Translations under genes and position numbers: made by a program
Part shown: piece by piece, positions 502 to 30,725 of the stretch
Layout of the letters: each line of letters begins with the position of its first letter
How positions within the stretch are numbered: the first letter of the stretch is position 1
The notes under the pieces: model-generated
Database searches by the model: none
The model's input: only the letters and a program-made list of their open reading frames with translations
Told to the model about the DNA's origin: nothing
Assembly: GCA_000242935.3 (NCBI GenBank)
Contig: CP007053.1
Coordinates: 3,953,001-4,017,000, forward strand
Direction of reading: 5' to 3'
DNA length: 64,000 nucleotides
DNA from: Opitutaceae bacterium TAV5
Lineage (GTDB): Bacteria; Verrucomicrobiota; Verrucomicrobiia; Opitutales; Opitutaceae

Positions 502-1974
502 ATGTCTGCCTCCCTCCCTCCCCCCCCGCCACCACCACACACACACACGCAGGCGCGGTTGCCTGTCGCCGTCATCGGCGGCGGCATCACCGGGCTCACC
601 GCAGCCTGGCGGCTCGCGCGCGAGGGTCATCCGGTGCGGCTTTTCGAAGCGTCCCCGCGGCCTGGCGGGCTGATTCGCAGCGAACGCGATGGCGAGTGGC
701 TGAGCGAGGCCGGGCCCAACTCGCTGCTCGACAACAAACCGGAACTCGCAGCGCTGCTCGCCGAGCTCGGACTGGAGGAGGCCCGCCAGTATGCGCAGCC
801 AGCGGCGAAAAAGCGGTTTATCGTGCGTCGCGGCCGTCCGCTGGCGGCGCCGTCGTCGCCGGTGTCGGCGGTGACCACGCCGCTGCTTTCGTTGCGCGGG
901 AAGCTGCGGATTTTCGGCGACCTGTTTTGGCGGCCCCGCCCGCGGGCGGAGGATCTGCCGCTGGGCGAATTTGCCGCGGCGCATTTCGGGCGTGAACTGG
1001 CCGATTATGCGGTCGATCCATTTGTCTCCGGCATCTACGCGGGGGATCCGCAGAGACTTTCGGCCCGGTATGCGTTTCCGTTGCTGTGGGAACTGGAACA
1101 AAAACACGGCTCCCTTATCCGGGGCGGGATCGCCGCGGCGAAGGCGCGCCGCGCCACCCGGCCGGCAGGACCGGCAGAAAAACCGCGCCCGCCGCGGGCG
1201 AGGATTTTTTCGTTTGCAGAGGGGCTGGAGACGATCCCCGCCGCGCTCGCGGAGCGGTTGCCGGCCGGTTGCGTGGAGACGGGAGCGCGTGTCGTGCGGC
1301 TGGTGCCGCCGGTGGCCCGCGGAGGCGCCTGGGAGGTGGTGTGGGAACGAAAGGACGAAAAGGGCGCAAGCGGTGTCGAGGGGCGGCTGACGGAGCGGGT
1401 GGCGGCGGTGATCCTGGCGTTGCCGGGCGAGGCGCTGGCGCGGCTGGAAATCGGAGCGAACGGAGAACACCCGCTGGCGGCGCTGGCGGAGGTGGAGTAT
1501 CCGCCGGTGGCGTCACTGTTTCTCGGATACAGGCGTGAACAGGTGCGGCATCCGCTCGACGGTTTCGGGATGCTGGCGCCGTCGAAAGAAAACCGGAATC
1601 TGCTCGGCGTGCTCTTTTCCTCGACGCTGTTTCCCGGCCGGGCACCGGCGGGGCATATCGCGCTCACGGTGCTGGCGGGCGGGGTGCAGCGGCCGGAGCT
1701 GGCGCGGATGGAGCTGCCTTCGCTCATGGGCATCGTGCGCGCCGAGTTGCTGGAGTTGCTCGGCGTATCGGGCGATCCGGTGTACGTGAAGCACCGCGTC
1801 ACGCCGCACGCGATCCCCCAGTACAATCTCGGTTACGGGAGATTTCACACGGTGATCGAGGCTGCCGAAACCGCGCATCCGGGGCTTCTGGTCGGCGGAC
1901 CGGTCCGCGACGGCATCGCGGTGAGCGCCTGCGTGGCCGCAGGAGAAAAACTGGCCCGGCGCGTGGTTGCGTAA
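502..1974 (+). CDS. hemY: Protoporphyrinogen oxidase (FAD-dependent)
   Basis: The 490-residue protein oxidises protoporphyrinogen IX (or coproporphyrinogen III in the coproporphyrin-dependent branch) in the haem pathway. The FAD-binding Rossmann motif GGGITG is at residues 26-31, followed by an ARxGGLI-like segment (PRPGGLIRSE) typical of the amine-oxidase/PPO family, and a C-terminal FAD-contact stretch HPGLLVGGPVRDGIAVSAC. The first 20 residues are low complexity, seven prolines then HTHT, encoded by runs of C and an ACACAC tract. They precede the conserved start of the fold and may be a replication-slippage product. Residues around 213-233 are rich in Arg and Pro and look like an extra loop. 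The partner gene hemE lies upstream. Family assignment is strong; which tetrapyrrole is the true substrate is not visible. Confidence 0.92.
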   Translation: MSASLPPPPPPPHTHTQARLPVAVIGGGITGLTAAWRLAREGHPVRLFEASPRPGGLIRSERDGEWLSEAGPNSLLDNKPELAALLAELGLEEARQYAQPAAKKRFIVRRGRPLAAPSSPVSAVTTPLLSLRGKLRIFGDLFWRPRPRAEDLPLGEFAAAHFGRELADYAVDPFVSGIYAGDPQRLSARYAFPLLWELEQKHGSLIRGGIAAAKARRATRPAGPAEKPRPPRARIFSFAEGLETIPAALAERLPAGCVETGARVVRLVPPVARGGAWEVVWERKDEKGASGVEGRLTERVAAVILALPGEALARLEIGANGEHPLAALAEVEYPPVASLFLGYRREQVRHPLDGFGMLAPSKENRNLLGVLFSSTLFPGRAPAGHIALTVLAGGVQRPELARMELPSLMGIVRAELLELLGVSGDPVYVKHRVTPHAIPQYNLGYGRFHTVIEAAETAHPGLLVGGPVRDGIAVSACVAAGEKLARRVVA

Positions 1975-2039
1975 TCCGCGGGGGCCTGTTTTCCTGCATT
2001 TTTCCTGCTTTTTTTCTGACGATCCCGCCTTTCTTTTCC

Positions 2040-2378
2040 ATGAAAACGCTGTTCCAACGTATCATCGACCGGGAAATTCCCGCCAAAATCGAGCACGAGG
2101 ACGACCGGTGCATCGTCATCCACGACATCGAGCCGCAGGCGCCCGTGCATCTGCTCATCATCCCGAAAACCGTGATCCCGCGCGTGGGCGAGGCGACGGT
2201 GGCGGACGAGGGCACACTCGGGCACCTGCTGCTCGTGGCCGGAGTGGTGGCGAAAAAGCTCGGCCTCGAACGCGGTTTCCGCCTCGTCATCAACCACGGT
2301 CCGGATGCCTGCGAGAGCGTGCCGCACCTGCACGTGCACCTGCTCGCGAAGCGCCAGATGGGCTGGCCTCCGGGATAG
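2040..2378 (+). CDS. HIT family nucleotide hydrolase (HinT-like)
   Basis: A 112-residue histidine-triad protein. The catalytic motif HLHVHLLA places His at 96, 98 and 100 and is followed by the MGWPPG C-terminus characteristic of HinT-type purine-nucleoside phosphoramidases. HinT enzymes hydrolyse AMP-lysine and similar adenylates in the cytoplasm; the physiological substrate here is not known. It starts 65 bp after hemY and ends 26 bp before surE, so a shared transcript is likely. Length matches the family (about 110-120). Confidence 0.93.
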   Translation: MKTLFQRIIDREIPAKIEHEDDRCIVIHDIEPQAPVHLLIIPKTVIPRVGEATVADEGTLGHLLLVAGVVAKKLGLERGFRLVINHGPDACESVPHLHVHLLAKRQMGWPPG

Positions 2379-2404
2379 GCAGAATTGCGGATTTCACATT
2401 TTCC

Positions 2405-3211
2405 ATGCGACTTCTTGTTTCCAACGACGACGGCATCGACAGTCTGTTTTTCCACGAACTGATCCATGCGCTGCGGGATGCGGGGCATACGCTCTACGTC
2501 GTGGCTCCGAAACATGAGCAAAGCTGGACAGGCGCGGGAAAGTCGCGGCATCGCACGGTGACGTCGGAAGCGGTCGAGCGCGGGTTCGGATGTCCGTCCT
2601 GGACGGTGGACGGGACGCCCGCCGATTGCGTCAATATCGCGCTGGCCCATCTGCTGCCCCGTATTGAAGGAAAAACTACGCCGGATGTCGGGGCGGTGGT
2701 CAGCGGCATCAATCTGGGGCGCAACACCGCGCTCGGTTTCATCATGGCGAGCGGCACCATCGCCGCGGCGTGGGAGGGGGCGATTCACGGACTGCCAGCG
2801 ATCGCGTTTTCGCAAGAACTGGACACAGCCGCTTTCGGGCGGCTGAAAAAGGGCGAGCCGATGGACGCCGTTCTCCGGGAGACGCTGGCGGCGTCGGTCG
2901 CGCATGCGGTGCGGTTGACGGAGGCGCTGCTGGCTCCCCAAACGAAAACGCCGGCGCCGTTTGTGGTGCACAATGTCAATTTCCCGCATCCTTGCGGTGC
3001 GGAGACGCCGGTGCGGCGGACGATCCCGGCGCAGGTGCGCACGCCGGGGCTTTTCAGCCCGGCGGCGGATGACGGCACGCATCGCTTCGTGTATGCGGAT
3101 GCGGTGGATGTTTCTCCTCCCGGCCAGCTTACGGACAAGGCGGCGCTGGCAGCCGGAGTGATCAGTCACAGTGTGCTGGATTATACGCGGCTGGGCGTGG
3201 CGGAGGGGTGA
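2405..3211 (+). CDS. surE: 5'-nucleotidase SurE
   Basis: SurE is a metal-dependent survival protein that removes phosphate from nucleoside monophosphates. The start chosen (ATG, 268 codons) gives the canonical opening MRLLVSNDDGID, with metal-binding Asp 8 and Asp 9. The VSGINLGRN segment supplies the conserved Asn ligand, and FSQEL, HNVNFP and a Tyr-rich tail follow as in the family. The reading frame stays open upstream into the HIT gene, but that part is not SurE-like. It is the last gene of the hemE-hemY-HIT-surE run; a repeat cluster follows. Confidence 0.95.
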   Translation: MRLLVSNDDGIDSLFFHELIHALRDAGHTLYVVAPKHEQSWTGAGKSRHRTVTSEAVERGFGCPSWTVDGTPADCVNIALAHLLPRIEGKTTPDVGAVVSGINLGRNTALGFIMASGTIAAAWEGAIHGLPAIAFSQELDTAAFGRLKKGEPMDAVLRETLAASVAHAVRLTEALLAPQTKTPAPFVVHNVNFPHPCGAETPVRRTIPAQVRTPGLFSPAADDGTHRFVYADAVDVSPPGQLTDKAALAAGVISHSVLDYTRLGVAEG

Positions 3212-3219
3212 GGCCTGTG

Positions 3220-3404
3220 GCAACGACGTAGCGGCATGCGTCCCGGCATGCCGTCCGGAGCGGGCGGGACGCCCGCGGCACCGGGAGCGCCGGCATCCTT
3301 GCCGGCACCGTGCTGATGGCGCCGGGAGGCAACGATAGCCGGCAGGATGCCGGCGCTCCCGGTCGGAGAGGCAACGGATGCGGGCGGGACGCCCGCGCCA
3401 CAGA
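3220..3404. repeat. Cluster of GC-rich palindromic repeats
   Basis: The 199 bp between surE and the convergent methyltransferase is almost entirely short palindromes. These are a GGCATGC/GCATGCC pair at about 3232-3252, GGGCGGGACGCCCGC-type units near 3260 and 3382, and a pair of GCCGGCATCC / GGATGCCGGC units facing each other around 3308-3355. Units of the same kind recur throughout the window. It could serve as a bidirectional terminator for the two convergent genes. No gene is evident here. Confidence 0.8.
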
Positions 3405-3410
3405 GCGCGC

Positions 3411-4547
3411 TCAGCGGCGTTTCCAGGCGGCGATGAACATGCCGTTGGCGTTGTGCTCGTGAGGCCAGAGGGTGAGACGGGCATCGGAGGCGCCGGGGAT
3501 CGGGAGTGGTTCGAAATCCGTGGTGTGCGCGGCGGTGAAGGCGTCGGCGATGGCGGTGGTCTCGCTGCGGGTGAGCGTGCAGACGGCGTAGACGAGGCGT
3601 CCGCCGGGCTTGAGCGCCGGGGCGGCGTGGGCGAGGAGTTGCTGCTGGATGGCGGCGAGTTCGCGGACGTCGTCGGGCGAGGTGGTCCAGCGGGCATGCG
3701 GGTTGCGCTGCCAGGTGCCGGTTCCGCTGCACGGGGCGTCGAGGAGGATGCCGTCGAACTTTGTTTTGGTGGGGAGGACGGGGCCGCCGTTCCAGGGGAC
3801 GGCGCGGTAGTTCCAGGCGTGGGCGCGGGAAGCGCGCTTGCGCAGGGTGGCGAGGCGGCCGGTGTGGCGGTCGGTCGCCCAGATGAGGCCGCGGTTGTCC
3901 ATCAGGTCGGAGAGGTGGAGCGTCTTGCCGCCTTCGCCGCAGCAGGCGTCCCACCAGGTTTCCCCGGGCTGCGGAGTGCAGGCGTGGCCGACGAGTTGCG
4001 AGGCGAGATCCTGGATTTCGAAGAGACCCTGTTTGAATTCGTCGGTGCGGAAGAGATCCTTGGGGCCGGTATAACGGAAGGCGGTGGGCGCCGTGAGGAG
4101 GGAGGAGGCGGGCGCCGGTTCGCAGTGGCCGAGGGCGCGGGGGAGTTTTTCGGCAAATTCCCGCTGCGCGCGAATCCAGAGCGGAGCAGGCCTCTGGAGC
4201 GCGCGGAGCCAGGCGGTGCGGGCGTCGGGCGAGGGGAAGTCGATTTCGTCGAGCACCCAGGCGGGAACGGCGCGGACGGCGAGGGTTTCTTTTTTGATGG
4301 CGGCGGGATCGGCGTCGAAGCGGCGCTGGAGGTCGAGCGCGGCGGCGATCCGGGCGGGGCGGGCGCCGGCATCGTCGAGCCAGGAGAGCCAGCGAAAGTA
4401 ACTGAAAACAGCGTGCGCGATGTCGCGGCGCTCGGCGGGCGAGAGGTGGCGGAGCTGGCCGAGTTCGCGGCGGAGAGCATGGTCCGCCGGGTTGTCGGGC
4501 GAAATCTTGTCGATGATGAGCGCGGCGCGCTGGGAGAGAGCGGACAT
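3411..4547 (-). CDS. RsmB/NOL1-NOP2-sun type RNA cytosine-C5 methyltransferase
   Basis: A 378-residue S-adenosylmethionine-dependent RNA m5C methyltransferase. The start MSALSQRAAL was chosen because the upstream in-frame extension is translated palindromic repeat (VARASRPP and similar). The SAM-binding motif is DACCGEGGKT, the motif IV Cys is in DAPCSGTGTW, and the catalytic motif VI Cys is in YAVCTLTRSE. The N-terminal region is a short helical domain, not a clear NusB domain. A second, clearer RsmB with a NusB-like N-terminus lies at 54114-55472, so this copy may modify another rRNA or tRNA site. It is convergent with surE. Confidence 0.9.
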   Translation of the reverse strand: MSALSQRAALIIDKISPDNPADHALRRELGQLRHLSPAERRDIAHAVFSYFRWLSWLDDAGARPARIAAALDLQRRFDADPAAIKKETLAVRAVPAWVLDEIDFPSPDARTAWLRALQRPAPLWIRAQREFAEKLPRALGHCEPAPASSLLTAPTAFRYTGPKDLFRTDEFKQGLFEIQDLASQLVGHACTPQPGETWWDACCGEGGKTLHLSDLMDNRGLIWATDRHTGRLATLRKRASRAHAWNYRAVPWNGGPVLPTKTKFDGILLDAPCSGTGTWQRNPHARWTTSPDDVRELAAIQQQLLAHAAPALKPGGRLVYAVCTLTRSETTAIADAFTAAHTTDFEPLPIPGASDARLTLWPHEHNANGMFIAAWKRR

Positions 4548-4675
4548 GAAGGCAGGCGGTGAAGGACGGTGAATGGAGATGACCGGGACCGGAGGGCGGC
4601 ACGGAGTCACCCGGGACAGAAGCCGGAGCGGGCAGCGGGAACAACAGCGAATTGCGGAGAGAGGCGGGGACGTGG

Positions 4676-4812
4676 CGGCATGCATCCCTGCATGCCGGAC
4701 ACGGGCTGGAAGCCCGTGTCCACGTCGATCCGGCGGCTTCGCCGTCGGCGGGCGAGACGCCCGCGCCACGCGGAGAGGCAACGCTCACGGGCAAGGATGC
4801 CCGTGCCACAGC
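4676..4812. repeat. GC-rich palindromic repeat cluster
   Basis: Between the Uma2 gene and the methyltransferase start. It holds a CATGC palindrome (4680-4695), then a composite of about 70 bp at 4699-4769 made of GGGCTGGAAGCCC, GGCGGCTTCGCCG and GGCGGGCGAGACGCCCGC units, then GGGCAAGGATGCCC. The composite recurs almost unchanged at 27531-27600. No coding capacity is credible here. Confidence 0.85.
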
Positions 4813-4819
4813 GGGGGGA

Positions 4820-5374
4820 TCAGCTTGCGAAGACTTCCTTCAGGGAAATCGTCAGGCCGGGGAGGAGCGTGCTGCTGAAGGTATCCGCCGCCTTGTACGT
4901 GGCGGCAGGGGTTTCGGAGTCGGTGGCAAGCCGGTAGAGCGCGAGGATACGGCGGTCGGGATCGACGATCCACAGTTCCTCGACGCCCGTGCGGGTGTAG
5001 ATAGCGCGCTTGGGGCCGAGGTCGTATTTGGCGCTGGTTTTCGAGAGGACTTCGATGACGAGATCCGGCGCGCCCTCGATACCATGCTTTTTGATGATGC
5101 TGCGGTTTTCTTTCCGGATGAAGAGCACGTCGGGCTGGTAGACGTTGAGATCGGAGAGATAGACGTCGATCGGCGCCATGAAGGCCTTCCCGTCGGGATT
5201 GGAGTGCAAGTAATTGCGAAGCAGGAGGTAGAGGTTGCCTGCTATATCTTGATGGAATGAGGAGGGTGAGGGAGCCATGACAAAATCGCCTTCGATGAGC
5301 TGATAGTTGGGCGAACCAACCGGGATGAGCGCATAGTCGTGGCGCGTGAGCGGTGGTGCTTGTGTGGCGGGCAT
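4820..5374 (-). CDS. Uma2 family protein (PD-(D/E)xK nuclease-like, DUF820)
   Basis: A 184-residue protein of the Uma2/DUF820 family, whose fold resembles restriction endonucleases. Visible family motifs are YQLIEGDFVMAPSP near the N-terminus, the acidic pair in YQPDVLFI, the core GAPDLVIEVLS with candidate catalytic Asp and Glu, and VEELWIVDPDRR toward the end. These genes are abundant in cyanobacteria, Chloroflexi and Verrucomicrobia, often next to repeats. Their biological role is not established. It is bordered by a repeat cluster downstream and lies 31 bp from the end of the liv operon. Confidence 0.88.
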   Translation of the reverse strand: MPATQAPPLTRHDYALIPVGSPNYQLIEGDFVMAPSPSSFHQDIAGNLYLLLRNYLHSNPDGKAFMAPIDVYLSDLNVYQPDVLFIRKENRSIIKKHGIEGAPDLVIEVLSKTSAKYDLGPKRAIYTRTGVEELWIVDPDRRILALYRLATDSETPAATYKAADTFSSTLLPGLTISLKEVFAS

Positions 5375-5405
5375 GGGTGAAACAATGGCCGGTTTGCCGT
5401 CGGGG

Positions 5406-7040
5406 TCAACCGCCCAGGTAGGCGGCCTGCAGGCGGGGGTCTTCGCGCAGGCGCGCGCTCGGGCCGTCGAGCACGATCCGGCCGGTTTCGAGCACCCAGG
5501 CGTGGGTGGAAATCTCCAGGGCGAGCGAGGCGTTTTGCTCCACCAGCAGGATCGTGATGCCCCGCTCGCGGTTGATCTCCGCGATCTTCTCGAAAATCGT
5601 CCGGATCAGGCGCGGGGCGATGCCGAGCGAGGGCTCGTCGAGCATCAGGAATTTCGGGTCGCCCATCAGCGCGCGTCCGATCGCCAGCATCTGCTGCTCG
5701 CCGCCGGAAAGCGTGCCGGCCACCTGCGCGAGGCGTTCCTTGAGGCGGGGAAAGATGTCGAAAACGTACTCGCGGTTGTAGTCCACGCGGTCGGCATCCG
5801 TCTGGAGCCAGGCGCCCATGGCGAGGTTTTCGGCGACGGTGAGGTTGGCAAAAATCATCCGGCCTTCGGGGACGTGACAGAGCCCGCGATCAACGATCCG
5901 GTGCGGCGGGAGGCGGGTGATATCGGTATCGGAAAAAATGATACTTCCGGCGCGGGCGCGGAGGAGGCCGGAGATCGTGCGCAGCGTCGTGGTCTTGCCG
6001 GCGCCGTTGCCGCCGACGAGCGTGACGATCGCGCCGTGCGGGATTGTGAGCGACACGTCGTGCAGGGCGGCGATCGCTCCATAGGAAACGGAAAGGCCGG
6101 AGACGGTCAGCATGGTTTTCATGCGGCCCGCCGGAACGGCGGCGTTTCCGTCGCCGGACGCGTGTCCGCGCGTCACTTCGAAAACCGGCGGGACGGTCGC
6201 CCCGTCCGGCAACGGGAACGTCGCCGTTTCCCGGGCGGATTCGTGGCCGAGGTAGGCTTCGATGACGGCCGGGTCCTGCCGGATCTGTTCGGGGGCGCCT
6301 TCGGCAATTTTCACGCCGTGGTCGAGGACGGCGATGCGCTCGCAGACATCCATGACCACGCGCATCGAGTGCTCCACGAGCAGGATCGTCAGGTTGAACC
6401 GGTCCTTGATTTCCCGGATGAGACGGATGAGCTCGATTTTCTCCGACGGGTTCATGCCGGCGGCGGGCTCATCGAGCAGCAGCAGGCGGGGGCGGGTGGC
6501 GAGGCAGCGGACGATTTCGAGGCGGCGCTGTTCGCCGTACGGGAGGCTGCCGGCGGGAGCGTCGCGGAGGCGGAGCAGGTGGAAGATGTCGAGGAGCGTC
6601 TCGACTTGCCGGGTGATGGCCGTTTCATCTGCGCGGAAGGCGCGGAGGCGGAGCAGGGTGTGGAACGGGCCGGTGGCGCGGTGCAGGTTGCAGGCGACGC
6701 GCACGTTGTCGAAAACGCTGAGGCTGCCGAAAAGCCGGATGTTCTGGAAGGTGCGGGCGATGCCGAGCGCGACGATCTCGTGCATGCGACGGCCGGCCAG
6801 AGAACGACCGGCAAACCGCACCGCGCCTGCGCTGGCGGGGTACACGCCGGAGATGAGGTTGAAGAGCGTGGTCTTGCCAGCGCCGTTGGGGCCGATGACG
6901 CCGCACAACTCGCCTTCGCGCAGGGCGAGGTCCACGGCATTGACGGCGACAAGGCCGCCGAAACGGACCGTGGCCTTGTCCAGCTCCAGCAACGGGGGCG
7001 GCGAGGGTGGTGGCGGAGGACTCGGGTGTGCGGTATCCAC
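5406..7040 (-). CDS. livGF: Fused LivG-LivF type ATPase of a branched-chain amino-acid ABC transporter
   Basis: One 544-residue protein holds two complete ABC ATPase domains that are normally separate LivG and LivF subunits. Domain 1 (about 17-265) has Walker A GPNGAGKT at 50-57 and Walker B LLLLDEPAAG, and ends with the LivG-type HAV-like tail. Domain 2 (about 308-544) has Walker A GGNGAGKT, signature LSGGEQQ and Walker B FLMLDEPSLG. A low-similarity linker of about 40 residues joins them. The start codon is GTG, and the first 16 residues are mostly Pro and Ser. It is the last gene of livK-livH-livM-livGF. Each domain matches its subunit family clearly; a base-level sequencing join seems unlikely because the linker is long and in frame. 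Confidence 0.93.
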   Translation of the reverse strand: MDTAHPSPPPPPSPPPLLELDKATVRFGGLVAVNAVDLALREGELCGVIGPNGAGKTTLFNLISGVYPASAGAVRFAGRSLAGRRMHEIVALGIARTFQNIRLFGSLSVFDNVRVACNLHRATGPFHTLLRLRAFRADETAITRQVETLLDIFHLLRLRDAPAGSLPYGEQRRLEIVRCLATRPRLLLLDEPAAGMNPSEKIELIRLIREIKDRFNLTILLVEHSMRVVMDVCERIAVLDHGVKIAEGAPEQIRQDPAVIEAYLGHESARETATFPLPDGATVPPVFEVTRGHASGDGNAAVPAGRMKTMLTVSGLSVSYGAIAALHDVSLTIPHGAIVTLVGGNGAGKTTTLRTISGLLRARAGSIIFSDTDITRLPPHRIVDRGLCHVPEGRMIFANLTVAENLAMGAWLQTDADRVDYNREYVFDIFPRLKERLAQVAGTLSGGEQQMLAIGRALMGDPKFLMLDEPSLGIAPRLIRTIFEKIAEINRERGITILLVEQNASLALEISTHAWVLETGRIVLDGPSARLREDPRLQAAYLGG

Positions 7041-23644: not shown

Positions 23645-23770
23645 TTGGCGATGGAGCGGCGGCGTCCCCGCCGCTCCGCCAGACAGGTGCCGCATGAACG
23701 CGCCTCTGTCCTGCAGGGGCTTTATCCGGCTGGCGCGGGCGTCGCAAGCGACGCCCCTGCATCGGCAGAA
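23645..23770. repeat. GC-rich palindromic repeats downstream of purC
   Basis: Two palindromes fill the gap between the lipoprotein gene and the convergent purC. GGAGCGGCGGCG/CGCCGCTCC at about 23652-23676 resembles the one at 63773-63802. A unit at about 23726-23765 has the GGGCGTCGC-AA-GCGACGCCC core flanked by CCGGCTGGCGC and CTGCATCGG. The second unit matches, apart from two compensating bases, the repeat interrupted by the insertion sequence at 28313-30016. Confidence 0.85.
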
Positions 23771-27647: not shown

Positions 27648-28247
27648 ATGAAAATCACCCGCTTCCCGCTTCGTTCCGTATTTCTGCTTGTTGGTCTCGT
27701 CGTTCTGCCTGCGCTGGCGCAGGCCCATCCCGGTCATGACGGCGGGCATGAACTGACCTGGGACTTCGGCGGCGGGTTCGCACATCCGTTCACCGGCTGG
27801 GATCATTTGCTGGCGATGACGGCCGTGGGGCTCTGGACCGCGATTCTCGGGGGTCGCGCGCGCTGGCTGGTGCCGTCGGCGTTTGTCGGTCTGATGGTGA
27901 CGGGGGCGGTGGTGGCGATTTCCGGGTTTGTCATTCCGGGCGTCGAGCAGGGCATCGCGGCCTCGTTGCTCGCGCTCGGATTGCTGATCGCATTCGCCGT
28001 GCGGCTGCCGGTTGCGGCCGGGATGGCGGTGACGGGGTTGTTTGCGATTTTCCACGGCATGGCGCACGGCGCGGAGATGCCGGCGTCGGCGAGCGCATTT
28101 TCGTATGCGTCGGGGTTTGTAGTGGCTACCGTGATACTCCATGCGGCCGGTCTGGCGCTTGGCATGGCTCTGCAAAAACGGACGGTGATCGCCCGCGTGG
28201 CCGGGGGTCTCGTGGCGGCGGGCGGGTTGCTGGCGTTTGCGCTGTGA
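27648..28247 (+). CDS. hupE: HupE/UreJ family metal transporter
   Basis: A 199-residue membrane protein with a signal-like first helix (VFLLVGLVVLPALAQA). A His-rich mature start, HPGHDGGHE, comes next, then the family motif HPFTGWDHLLAM and five further helices, one holding HGMAHGAE. HupE/UreJ proteins are thought to import nickel for hydrogenase or urease. No such enzyme gene is nearby, so its metalloenzyme partner is elsewhere or the metal is different (cobalt is another option). The start at 27648 was chosen over an upstream in-frame ATG inside repeat-derived sequence. Confidence 0.9.
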   Translation: MKITRFPLRSVFLLVGLVVLPALAQAHPGHDGGHELTWDFGGGFAHPFTGWDHLLAMTAVGLWTAILGGRARWLVPSAFVGLMVTGAVVAISGFVIPGVEQGIAASLLALGLLIAFAVRLPVAAGMAVTGLFAIFHGMAHGAEMPASASAFSYASGFVVATVILHAAGLALGMALQKRTVIARVAGGLVAAGGLLAFAL

Positions 28248-28290
28248 AGAGGCGACAGGCGGGCCGGACCGGCGACGCCGTGCCGATGCA

Positions 28291-28312
28291 GGGGCGCCGC
28301 TTGCGGCGCCCG
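28291..28312. repeat. Left copy of 22-bp palindrome flanking the insertion sequence
   Basis: A GGGCGCCGC / GCGGCGCCC stem with a TT loop and one extra base at each end (G before, G after). It is identical base for base with 30017-30038, on the other side of the element, and is preceded by TGCCGATGCAG as in the uninterrupted repeat near 23760. Confidence 0.9.
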
Positions 28313-28335
28313 CTGGAGTTTGGCGGACCGGAGAG

Positions 28336-29826
28336 TCAGTTATGGGAGTAGAACAGGGCGGAGGCGAGGTCGGTGGAGGGTTTATGCGACTTGGTGTTCG
28401 AGGAGGAGCGGGAGCAGAAGTGGGATAAACTCTCGCGGCGGAGGTGGCGGGCCCAGAGTTCGACGCGCAGTTGGTTGATGAGCAAGCCGGTGGTGGCGCG
28501 GCGCGGGGGCTCGCGGCGGCGCCATTTGGCCAAGGGCACCGACGGGGGCAGTTTGTCCGCGCCATAGGTGTGATGCGCGGCAAGCAGCAAAAGGGCATAC
28601 GCGGCCACCGCGCAGGCAGGCTGGCGGCGCACCGCCTCCGGCTCCCTGACCTGTGCCTCGCTTACGCCCAGCAGACACTTTTCATCCCGGAAGTTCACCT
28701 CGATGTCCCAGCGCCAGAGGTATTCCTGCAGGATGTCTTCGAGCGGCACGTCCGGGTTGGTGCAAATCAGGCAGGCAGGCTGGCGGTAGAGCAGCTTGCC
28801 TGCTTTTTTCAACCGGTAGCCCAGGGGGGCGATCACCATCACCCGGACCAAGGTATCGACTCCGGTGATACGGGCCAGCACCGGCCCCAGTGTTTTGATC
28901 TTGAAATCGTGGCGCTTTTCCGCCGCGAAGGCCGGCACCCGGCTCCACCCGACGGTCTGGTCGGTGCGCAACTGTTCCGGCGTGGGCAGGGTGTCGCCAT
29001 ACTTGCGGGGGCGTCCCTTTTTGCCGGGCCGCGCCTGGCAGGGCGCGTAGAGCACGGTGTCTTTGCGCACCCGGCCGATCAGGACGGTGTTCTCCGGCAG
29101 CTGGCGCAACACCGTGCGGTTGGTGAAGCGTCCGTCGCTTACCCAGTGGATAGGGCGCGCGGTCGCGGTGCGCAGGTGCGCCATCCGCCCGGCGGCGACT
29201 TCGTTGATGTTGGCCTGTTTGCGGGCCTCGACGTAGGCCTTCTGCGTTCGGGTATCGGCGTGGCGCGAAGGTTTTTTGGGCAGCGGGGCCTCCTGCCAGT
29301 CCACCGGCACCAGCCGGGCCGAACCGTCGGCGGCGGGGAGGGCCGCGCAGAACTGCAGCACACGCTGGCCCCAGACAAAGTTGAGGTTGAACGGCGGGCC
29401 GAGCGGATCCTTGCGCCAGCCGCAGCCGGGGATGCAGCGGCCGGTTTTGCGGGTGATGGAGTCATCCAGCGCGACCACCCAGGGCCGGGCGGCATCGGTG
29501 GCCGCCAGCGCCTCGTGTTGCACGTGCGCGAAGACCGGATCGACCGGCAGGCGTTGCAGCAGGCGATACTGCGCCGACCAGTCCCGGTGTTGCGCCCCGG
29601 CCGTGCTCAGGGCTCCGGTCACCGTGTGGCGACCCAGATTAAGCAGACCGGCCAGCCACTGGGTGCGCGCCCGGGTAAAATCCCCGGGCGAGCCGAAGGC
29701 GGGGGCCAGCCCGTCGAGCAGGGAATCGAAGGCTTCGCTCAACGACGCTTTTTTTTTACCGGGACCGGATCGGGCGGAACCTCGCGCCGGGAAACGATCA
29801 GGTGGCCCTTGTCGTGGATCGTCCAC
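28336..29826 (-). CDS. IS4-like DDE transposase
   Basis: A 496-residue reading frame from a GTG codon. An RNase H-like transposase core is visible: first Asp in VVALDDSITRKTG, second Asp in HWVSDGRFTN, and Glu in YLWRWDIEVNFRDEK, followed by a helical tail with Arg/Lys-rich end. The first 27 residues overlap, in another frame, the end of an AbrB-like ORF. A run of nine A's on the coding strand (29749-29757) is positioned for -1 slippage from that ORF into this frame. The GTG may therefore not be the natural start. The frame is otherwise uninterrupted. Confidence 0.88.
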   Translation of the reverse strand: MDDPRQGPPDRFPARGSARSGPGKKKASLSEAFDSLLDGLAPAFGSPGDFTRARTQWLAGLLNLGRHTVTGALSTAGAQHRDWSAQYRLLQRLPVDPVFAHVQHEALAATDAARPWVVALDDSITRKTGRCIPGCGWRKDPLGPPFNLNFVWGQRVLQFCAALPAADGSARLVPVDWQEAPLPKKPSRHADTRTQKAYVEARKQANINEVAAGRMAHLRTATARPIHWVSDGRFTNRTVLRQLPENTVLIGRVRKDTVLYAPCQARPGKKGRPRKYGDTLPTPEQLRTDQTVGWSRVPAFAAEKRHDFKIKTLGPVLARITGVDTLVRVMVIAPLGYRLKKAGKLLYRQPACLICTNPDVPLEDILQEYLWRWDIEVNFRDEKCLLGVSEAQVREPEAVRRQPACAVAAYALLLLAAHHTYGADKLPPSVPLAKWRRREPPRRATTGLLINQLRVELWARHLRRESLSHFCSRSSSNTKSHKPSTDLASALFYSHN

Positions 29827-29941
29827 TCGACCGTCTCGCCCTTGGCGAAGTCCATCGCCTGCGCGATGGGGCGGGGAAGTTGATGTAATACTGCGCGGTT
29901 TCCTTGCGCTGGATGCATTGAACTTTGGTTGGATAGCCCAT
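29739..29941 (-). pseudogene. AbrB/SpoVT-like first ORF of the insertion sequence, frameshifted
   Basis: From ATG at 29941 the frame reads MGYPTKVQCIQRKETAQYYI. After a C-rich stretch (29868-29876) the recognisable continuation, AQAMDFAKGETVEWTIHDKG then HLIVSRREVPPDPVPVKKKRR, is in a frame one base away. One added C restores a 67-residue AbrB-type DNA-binding ORF ending TGA at 29739. In this copy the ORF is therefore broken by a single missing base. Similar small ORFs precede transposases of this kind in other elements (from memory of the family). Confidence 0.75.
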
Positions 29942-30016
29942 GAAGGAAACTAGTATTATAACTAGATATTTAATCAAGCCTTTCCTGCTGCAAAACTAGT
30001 CAGCGCCAAACTCCAG

Positions 30017-30098
30017 GGGGCGCCGCTTGCGGCGCCCGCGCCAGCCGGACGAAGCCTCCCATCCCGTTCGCGGGCTTCGCAAGCGAAGCCCCTACAGC
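30017..30098. repeat. Right copy of the 22-bp palindrome and a neighbouring palindrome
   Basis: 30017-30038 repeats 28291-28312 exactly and continues into CGCCAGCCGG, the right flank of the intact repeat near 23730. A second palindrome of the same class, GGGCTTCGC-AA-GCGAAGCCC, follows at about 30075-30094. Confidence 0.85.
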
Positions 30099-30143: not shown

Positions 30144-30725
30144 CTACGGGACGGCGTGCCGGAGCGGTTCGTACAGGAACAGAGCGCAGAGTGTCAGGCT
30201 GTGGGTGATACCGCCGGTGCGGGCGAGCGTGTAGACGTCGTCGGCCGGGAGCAGCGCCATCTGGAGTTCCTCGTCGGCATCCCAGGCCTGCGCGTGCAGC
30301 GGCTCGACGCCGTCGGCGAGCACGAAGTGGCAATGGTTGTTCATGATCGCCGGATTCGGGCGGATGCTGCCGAGCAGCCGCGCCTTGCCGCCGCCATAGC
30401 CGGTTTCTTCCTGCAACTCGCGCAGGCCGGCGACGACGGGATCCTCGCCGCGCTCGATGATGCCTCCGGGGATCTCCCACGAGAATCCGTCCGAACCGTA
30501 GCGGAACTGGTTGACGAGGACGATGCGGTTGTCGGTCGTGCGGGCGACGATGTTGACCCAGTCGGGTGCGTCGATGACAACGAAATCACGCTCCACGGCG
30601 CGACGCGGGTGGCGAAAGCGCACACTCTGCAAATCGAAGACGCGGGTGCTCGCCAGCGTGCGCTGGTCGAGGCGTTCCCAGCGGGGCGGAAGCGGTGTGG
30701 TGGCGAGTTCTTCGGGCGGTTGCAT
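30144..30725 (-). CDS. Nudix hydrolase (ADP-ribose pyrophosphatase-like)
   Basis: A 193-residue Nudix enzyme. The Nudix box runs GIIERGEDPVVAGLRELQEE then TGYGG, with the catalytic Glu cluster REL-x-EE. Upstream strands VVIDAPDWVNIVARTTDNRI and QFRYGSDGFSWEIPGG match the NudF/ADP-ribose pyrophosphatase group. Start: ATG at 30725, two codons after a GTG. The gene begins just below a terminator for the LysM gene. Confidence 0.9.
   Translation of the reverse strand: MQPPEELATTPLPPRWERLDQRTLASTRVFDLQSVRFRHPRRAVERDFVVIDAPDWVNIVARTTDNRIVLVNQFRYGSDGFSWEIPGGIIERGEDPVVAGLRELQEETGYGGGKARLLGSIRPNPAIMNNHCHFVLADGVEPLHAQAWDADEELQMALLPADDVYTLARTGGITHSLTLCALFLYEPLRHAVP

Follow-up and report, generated by a model that had tools for sequence, protein, structure and literature searches.

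How an insertion sequence comes to be bounded by two identical copies of one complete palindrome is the question raised by a locus of Opitutaceae bacterium TAV5, which lies in a stretch of 64,000 nucleotides that was analysed as a whole and is referred to here as the window. The length of a target duplication is usually taken as a fixed signature of the transposase and is used for family classification, and DDE transposases produce their duplications by attaching two 3′ ends to the opposite strands of the target at a constant spacing. The insertion sequence of the window, related to the IS701 and IS4 families (Table 1), ends in perfect 13-bp inverted repeats, CTGGAGTTTGGCG, a sequence with no further matches in the window when up to one mismatch is allowed. 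As the original prediction had it, these ends directly adjoin identical copies of a palindrome: the same 22-mer, GGGGCGCCGCTTGCGGCGCCCG, is found on both flanks, and consists of a 20-bp palindrome (9-bp arms around a TT centre) plus one base per side. The outer flanks, TGCCGATGCA and CGCCAGCCGG, together surround an unoccupied repeat, which bears out the claim that they join into a repeat left intact near 23726-23765, and this paralogous empty site carries just one palindrome and not two in tandem. With up to two mismatches allowed, the repeat pattern GGGGCGNCGCTTGCGNCGCCCG occurs four times in the window versus none in 100 shuffles.

Table 1. Features of the insertion sequence and of its target site (window coordinates)
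Feature	Position	Strand	Basis
Outer left flank TGCCGATGCA, belonging to the repeat that was interrupted	28281..28290	+	Same 10-mer beside the repeat at 23736-23757
Left copy of the 22-bp target duplication (9-bp-arm hairpin plus one unpaired base per side)	28291..28312	+	Sequence, folding
Insertion sequence, 1704 bp, IS701/IS4-related	28313..30016	-	Ends common to six genome copies
Terminal inverted repeat CTGGAGTTTGGCG	28313..28325	+	Motif match
DDE transposase frame, 496 codons from the listed GTG	28336..29826	-	Conserved D121/D122, D231 and E376 of P0001
A9 run GTAAAAAAAAAGC, where the accessory frame probably slips by -1 into the transposase frame	29749..29757	-	A6-A9 at the corresponding position of relatives that have the AbrB-like frame
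Accessory AbrB/MazE-like frame, which precedes the transposase and overlaps it	29739..29941	-	Broken in the window copy; intact in L002-L004
Terminal inverted repeat, other end	30004..30016	-	Motif match
Right copy of the 22-bp target duplication	30017..30038	+	Identical 22-mer
Outer right flank CGCCAGCCGG, remaining half of the repeat that was interrupted	30039..30048	+	Same sequence beside 23736-23757
Unoccupied repeat of the same palindromic kind, one palindrome	23736..23757	-	Paralogous empty site

The element sits between two convergent genes, a HupE/UreJ-type (hupE-like) gene ending at 28247 and a NUDIX gene ending at 30144. Two families of short palindromic repeats are seen in the window, one at 30071-30095, 23736-23757 and 28291-28312 and the other at 3379, 27532 and 62677; one repeat copy starts with GTAG on the minus strand, near 30095, and resembles the GTAG-tagged REPs that are highly enriched in the verrucomicrobium O. 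terrae (PMC3733652). When the flanks of the window copy and of loci L045, L003 and L004 were searched in relatives and sister genomes, the neighbour genes were present but the palindrome-rich intergenic stretches could not be aligned across the site in any case, and therefore the empty-site test is based only on paralogous unoccupied repeats.

Six copies of the element are found in this genome, four of them near-identical (the window copy included) and two at 88%, and all six lie on palindromes, which fall into two broad repeat types. The near-identical copies have exact duplications of 22, 21, 21 and 21 bp, and the two 88% copies imperfect 21-bp duplications in which 20/21 and 18/21 positions match; short, unrelated duplications, which reading these flanks could have revealed, are absent. 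The duplication measures 22 bp where the palindrome has an even centre and 21 bp where the centre is odd, and is therefore centred on the dyad in each case.

Relatives of the transposase were sought in sets of genomes which overlap and include the source genome. In the family set, matches were obtained in 10 of 200 genomes at E ≤ 0.001, some of them short fragments or distant, and at E ≤ 1e-30 the search reached 15/387 genomes in the phylum, 6/372 in the order and 4/384 in the class. Further relatives came from Geminisphaera colitermitum TAV2 (76%) and from a Planctomycetota MAG, and none from the viral contigs searched. Ends reading CTGGAGTTTGGC, or close variants of it, mark a group of DDE insertion sequences in Verrucomicrobiota and Planctomycetota. 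Both ends were located in 41 elements, a count that leaves out L040, L041, L055, L063, L073 and L074, as well as one end of some others, where the ends fall off the contig or are unrecognisable, and also L014 and L023, which share their flanks with L038 and are apparently the same locus. An exact duplication was present in 27 of the 41, always of 17-44 bp, and these correspond to 25 distinct targets after collapsing two identical targets of genome G276; two of the remaining 14 elements have near-duplications.

The most telling cases are those in which a single element shows several lengths. One element of genome G063, with 85% protein identity to that of the window, made duplications of 20, 21, 27 and 35 bp, and one of G163, at 47%, made duplications of 17, 17, 22 and 37 bp. 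In G276, at approximately 35% identity, all 14 copies found have hairpins at both ends and 12 of them have exact duplications of 18, 21, 23, 38, 40 or 44 bp, every duplication of these near-identical copies being a complete hairpin. The suspicion of hairpin-directed targeting, raised originally from one locus, is in this way strongly supported, with duplications tracking palindrome length from 17 to 44 bp within single genomes and elements.

Two earlier hairpin finders were discarded, as in flanks rich in palindromes they settled on other hairpins or made the stems too long, and the relationship was evaluated instead by a profile of mirrored pairing with permutations, by a test of single ends and by a palindrome span grown from the centre. 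Across the 25 targets, pairing between mirrored positions is 12-28% at positions -2 to 0 and 96-100% at positions +1 to +6. The observed 98% compares with 27% for random placement and 29% for permuted lengths, and 0/5000 trials reached the observed value in either test. Taken by genome, the observed value was reached by 0/5000 length permutations in G276, 436/5000 in G163, 221/5000 in G063 and 1251/5000 in G000, where all lengths are 21-22. The centre-grown span, blind to duplication length, correlates with the duplication at r = 0.97 (n = 25), a sample in which hairpins of 17-24 bp dominate and long targets are few (27, 35, 37, 38, 40 and 44). The duplication exceeds the span by 2 in 16 targets and equals it in six, with -2, +4 and +8 in one target each. 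Expressed per side, the overhang is thus 1/1 in 16 targets and 0/0 in six, together with 2/2 (L002), 4/4 (L082) and -1/-1 (L042) once each; that of L082 becomes 1/1 when a G.T pair is allowed, and in L042 an outer C-G pair lies outside the duplication.

Single ends tell the same story: a stem of 6 bp or more directly adjoins 84 of 91 ends, compared with 207 of 3600 positions picked at random in these flanks (5.75%), although some of the positives (L005_R, L061_R, L082_L, L085_L) were counted through a partner or offset other than that of their own hairpin; two ends with less than 30 bases of flank were omitted. The seven ends below the threshold are both ends of L042, which has a bulged hairpin, L044_R, L082_R (with the G.T pair), L038_R, L061_L and L068_R. 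Moreover, eight of the targets were selected for folding, and every one gives a stable DNA hairpin that runs from one foot to the other, bulged and internally looped ones included; L042, L084 and L088 have hairpins with a bulge or an internal loop and are likewise duplicated foot to foot. It could be thought that the element accumulates in intergenic palindromic repeats merely because insertion there does little harm, as the position of the window copy between convergent genes and the frequency of palindromes in the flanks would allow. Such accumulation cannot, however, fix the cut sites one base outside the stem; mirrored pairing is 27% at random places of those very flanks as opposed to the observed 98%, and this explanation, to which we give practically no weight, is refuted by the register of the cut sites.

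The targets themselves have little sequence in common. In G063 and G163 the longest words common to the targets are of 3-6 bases, and in G276, where several targets come from one repeat family, many pairs have just 3-5 bases in common; only a weak purine preference is found at the first duplicated base (39/50 edges). Judging from these comparisons, the targets are alike in structure and not in sequence, and hairpin-forming DNA appears to be recognised by its shape, with unrelated palindromes being used. The earlier proposal that the target was a member of a repeat family consequently holds for the window copy, but not as a requirement. A transposase could also read the dyad symmetry of a B-form duplex, one arm per subunit, and cut outside it with no extrusion at all, which would account for the symmetry of 25/25 targets about the cut sites as well as for the weak base preferences at the edges. 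The cut spacing of a single element, though, varies from 18 to 44 bp in G276, and most helical phases are represented among the lengths of all elements taken together, a spread out of reach for a fixed strand-transfer geometry on duplex DNA; added to this, the targets of G063 and G163 lack longer common words and hairpins with a bulge or an internal loop are also used, so that we regard duplex recognition as improbable.

Not every element conforms to this pattern. The copies of G255 do not fit, since L061 has neither duplication nor a convincing hairpin and the one readable end of L068 has no hairpin. Some elements without exact duplication, such as L079, L086, L039 and L057, carry different hairpins on each side, and are read as recombinants or decayed copies. 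A single duplication is split between the two copies L044 and L046 of G063, which looks like the product of recombination, and the 60 bases outward of L051 on the left are identical to those of L052b on the right; both cases provide direct evidence for exchange. L044 and L046 lie on opposite strands with exchanged flanks, which suggests a chromosomal inversion through these elements. One may go further and ask if the paired palindromes arose at all by insertion, and not by recombination between copies or from ends that carry the palindrome along, as the copies with unlike hairpins and the split duplication might hint. The exact duplications of 27/41 elements, which hardly ever recur and agree in each case with the element's own flank, refute such an origin for these cases, and its overall probability is negligible. 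Finally, L052 of G163 (1726-5626) holds two copies in tandem with a single 17-bp hairpin between them and a third end nearby, an arrangement in which flanking hairpins have apparently served again as targets; with two hairpins left by each insertion, an insertion may create new landing sites.

Turning to the enzyme, D121/D122, D231 and E376 are conserved in at least 20 of the 21 transposases aligned, as expected for a DDE triad, and the Y-(2)-R-(3)-E-(6)-K spacing of the IS4 signature is present in P0001 as YLWRWDIEVNFRDEK. Among the curated NCBIfam models, the closest is NF049999 (transpos_IS701_3), passed with 178.8 bits for a cut-off of 170; the same scan gave 53.8 bits against a cut-off of 150 for the other IS701 model, NF033540, and 21.6 against 100 for the IS1634 model NF033559, left the transposase below the cut-offs of the IS4 models and returned no IS1182-family model among its matches. 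The initial label of IS4-like was thus fair as regards the signature, but it needs refinement in favour of IS701_3. No relative of the transposase was found among the solved structures searched, and its predicted structure, of low confidence (mean pLDDT 45.0 for four sequences), was set aside.

Upstream of the transposase, the branch to which this genome belongs encodes an accessory frame with the consensus MGYPTKVQxIxRK...INFP...KGExVEW, which ends in an A run, mostly of A8-A9 (A6 in L038). In the copies of the source genome the transposase frame continues at -1 from this run, and the A9 run of the window fits a -1 frameshift (A AAA AAG). The functional start of the transposase is probably reached through a frameshift from the accessory frame, which in the window copy is broken by a 1-nt deletion in a G run near 29868-29871. 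The identity of the accessory product as AbrB is weak: it scores 18.0 bits against a cut-off of 24.7 for Pfam MazE_antitoxin, and a profile of 11 sequences matched 7xi6 'C56' (E 0.005) and, with E 0.58, an AbrB/MazE/SpoVT chain. On the other hand, elements of the G276 type have a separate HARE-HTH frame instead (L077, 1631-1978), which narrowly passes its threshold (26.6 vs 25.9). The hairpin-inserting group would then comprise two branches with different DNA-binding partners, AbrB-like and HARE-HTH, and it is a guess that the accessory protein has a role in reading hairpins.

A contrast is offered by plasmid-borne transposases with 25-28% identity, whose elements have ends reading CTCGRCTTTG, to be compared with CTGGAGTTTG in the hairpin-duplicating element, and 5-bp flanks CTNAG or CTGAT, with a mismatch at the middle base in two of five. 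None of the five elements with located ends has an abutting hairpin (stems of at most 4), a sixth, L093, has no recognisable ends, and no accessory frame was seen upstream of these transposases. In L091 and L095 the 5-bp flanks are CTTAG and CTAAG, which differ at the middle base and are reverse complements of each other. The plasmid relatives form a separate clade with support of 100/100, where long branches call for caution. Their 5-bp, hairpin-free flanks indicate, therefore, that duplication of a hairpin and short duplication of fixed length both occur in related transposases with related ends.

In ISfinder, duplications in the IS1182 family range from 0 to 60 bp, and some of its members may behave in a similar way. 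Within this family, IS1272 and TnSha1 of Staphylococcus target inverted repeats by structure with no sequence preference, over spans of 21-85 bp, according to PMC5678879 and PMC4923244, and the element described here likewise inserts into hairpins irrespective of sequence. For IS1272, Wan et al. (PMC5678879) propose a cruciform model with joining at the 3′ feet and loss of the stem-loop, and Furi et al. (PMC4923244) describe hairpin targeting with deletion for TnSha1/IS1272; unlike this replacement of the stem-loop with no duplication, here the hairpin is kept, and duplicated exactly in 27/41 elements. PMC2266710 gives IS701 members a highly conserved duplication of almost always exactly 4 bp, in contrast with 17-44 bp in 27/27 exact duplications of our element, which moreover has an accessory DNA-binding frame; the terminal consensus given there for IS701, ---YACT-Y--YR, does not match CTGGAGTTTGGCG, which has GAGT in place of YACT. 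Shared with IS701 are the passing score for NF049999 and the relation of the ends to the CTCGRCTTTG of the plasmid relatives. With IS4 it shares the signature motif (as given in PMC2266710), but IS4 has a duplication of about one helix turn and a single-frame transposase, as opposed to 17-44 bp and an accessory frame with an A run. The element is thus related to IS701 and IS4 and yet breaks the fixed-length rule of these families.

Long duplications of variable length, of 8-514 bp, are also described for IS1549 and IS1634 of the IS1634 family, with no mechanistic model proposed (PMC2266710); against the IS1634 model, our transposase scores only the 21.6 bits given above. As to REP-targeting elements, PMC1525189 reports that ISPsy8, ISPa11, ISPpu9, ISPpu10 and ISRm22 insert at fixed positions in specific palindromic REPs with duplications of 0-6 bp. 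The insertion at palindromic repeats is common to both, but theirs takes place at a fixed site inside the repeat, and ours at the feet of hairpins unrelated in sequence.

The best explanation, which we hold to be very probable, is that the transposase acts at a cruciform, recognising its target by shape and leading to duplication of the whole hairpin. The palindrome would extrude as a cruciform, and both ends of the element would be joined by the transposase at the two 5′ feet, where the target phosphates would be opposed across the four-way junction at any arm length. Joining at the 5′ feet would leave each arm single-stranded on one side, and gap repair would then copy the complete hairpin to both sides, giving a duplication equal to the hairpin, usually with one base more per side. 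We infer extrusion, 5′-foot strand transfer and gap repair, as well as any structure-reading role of the accessory DNA-binding protein, and the range of 18-44 bp spanned by one element speaks against a constant spacing on a duplex. Single-stranded DNA also folds readily into hairpins, for instance on the lagging-strand template at the replication fork, and the 8/8 targets that folded from foot to foot would be compatible with such a substrate in place of a double cruciform. A complete duplication requires, nevertheless, both strands to be joined at their 5′ feet, and with one single-stranded hairpin, joining at both feet would lead to its replacement, as PMC5678879 and PMC4923244 describe for IS1272; insertion into single strands could still hold if both arms were exposed in turn, and we consider it unlikely, with a standing hardly better than that of duplex recognition.

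The cruciform model, joining at the 5′ feet included, coincides in its outcome with the 'pathway b' that Wan et al. drew in 2017 as hypothetical for IS1272 (PMC5678879), and the insertions described here would be a natural example of it. Insertion targeted to hairpins was already known; what would be new is the duplication of the whole hairpin with a length set by it, of which no reported example was found in the open-access literature, the main insertion sequence reviews being outside this search. On balance, we lean towards a mode of DDE transposition that would be new, the geometry of the target being set by the four-way junction and not by a fixed duplex spacing. The ends would be joined across the cruciform where a junction resolvase would cut, allowing one enzyme to produce many lengths, and the shift from an ancestor duplicating 5 bp would have been accompanied by an accessory DNA-binding protein able to read structure, one that is AbrB-like and fused through a frameshift in one branch and HARE-HTH in another. 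Here, the length of the duplication is set by the secondary structure of the target. This provides a concrete and testable mechanism for duplications of variable length, an open point for IS1549 and IS1634 in PMC2266710, and natural insertions of this kind could record which palindromes take cruciform or hairpin form in living cells.
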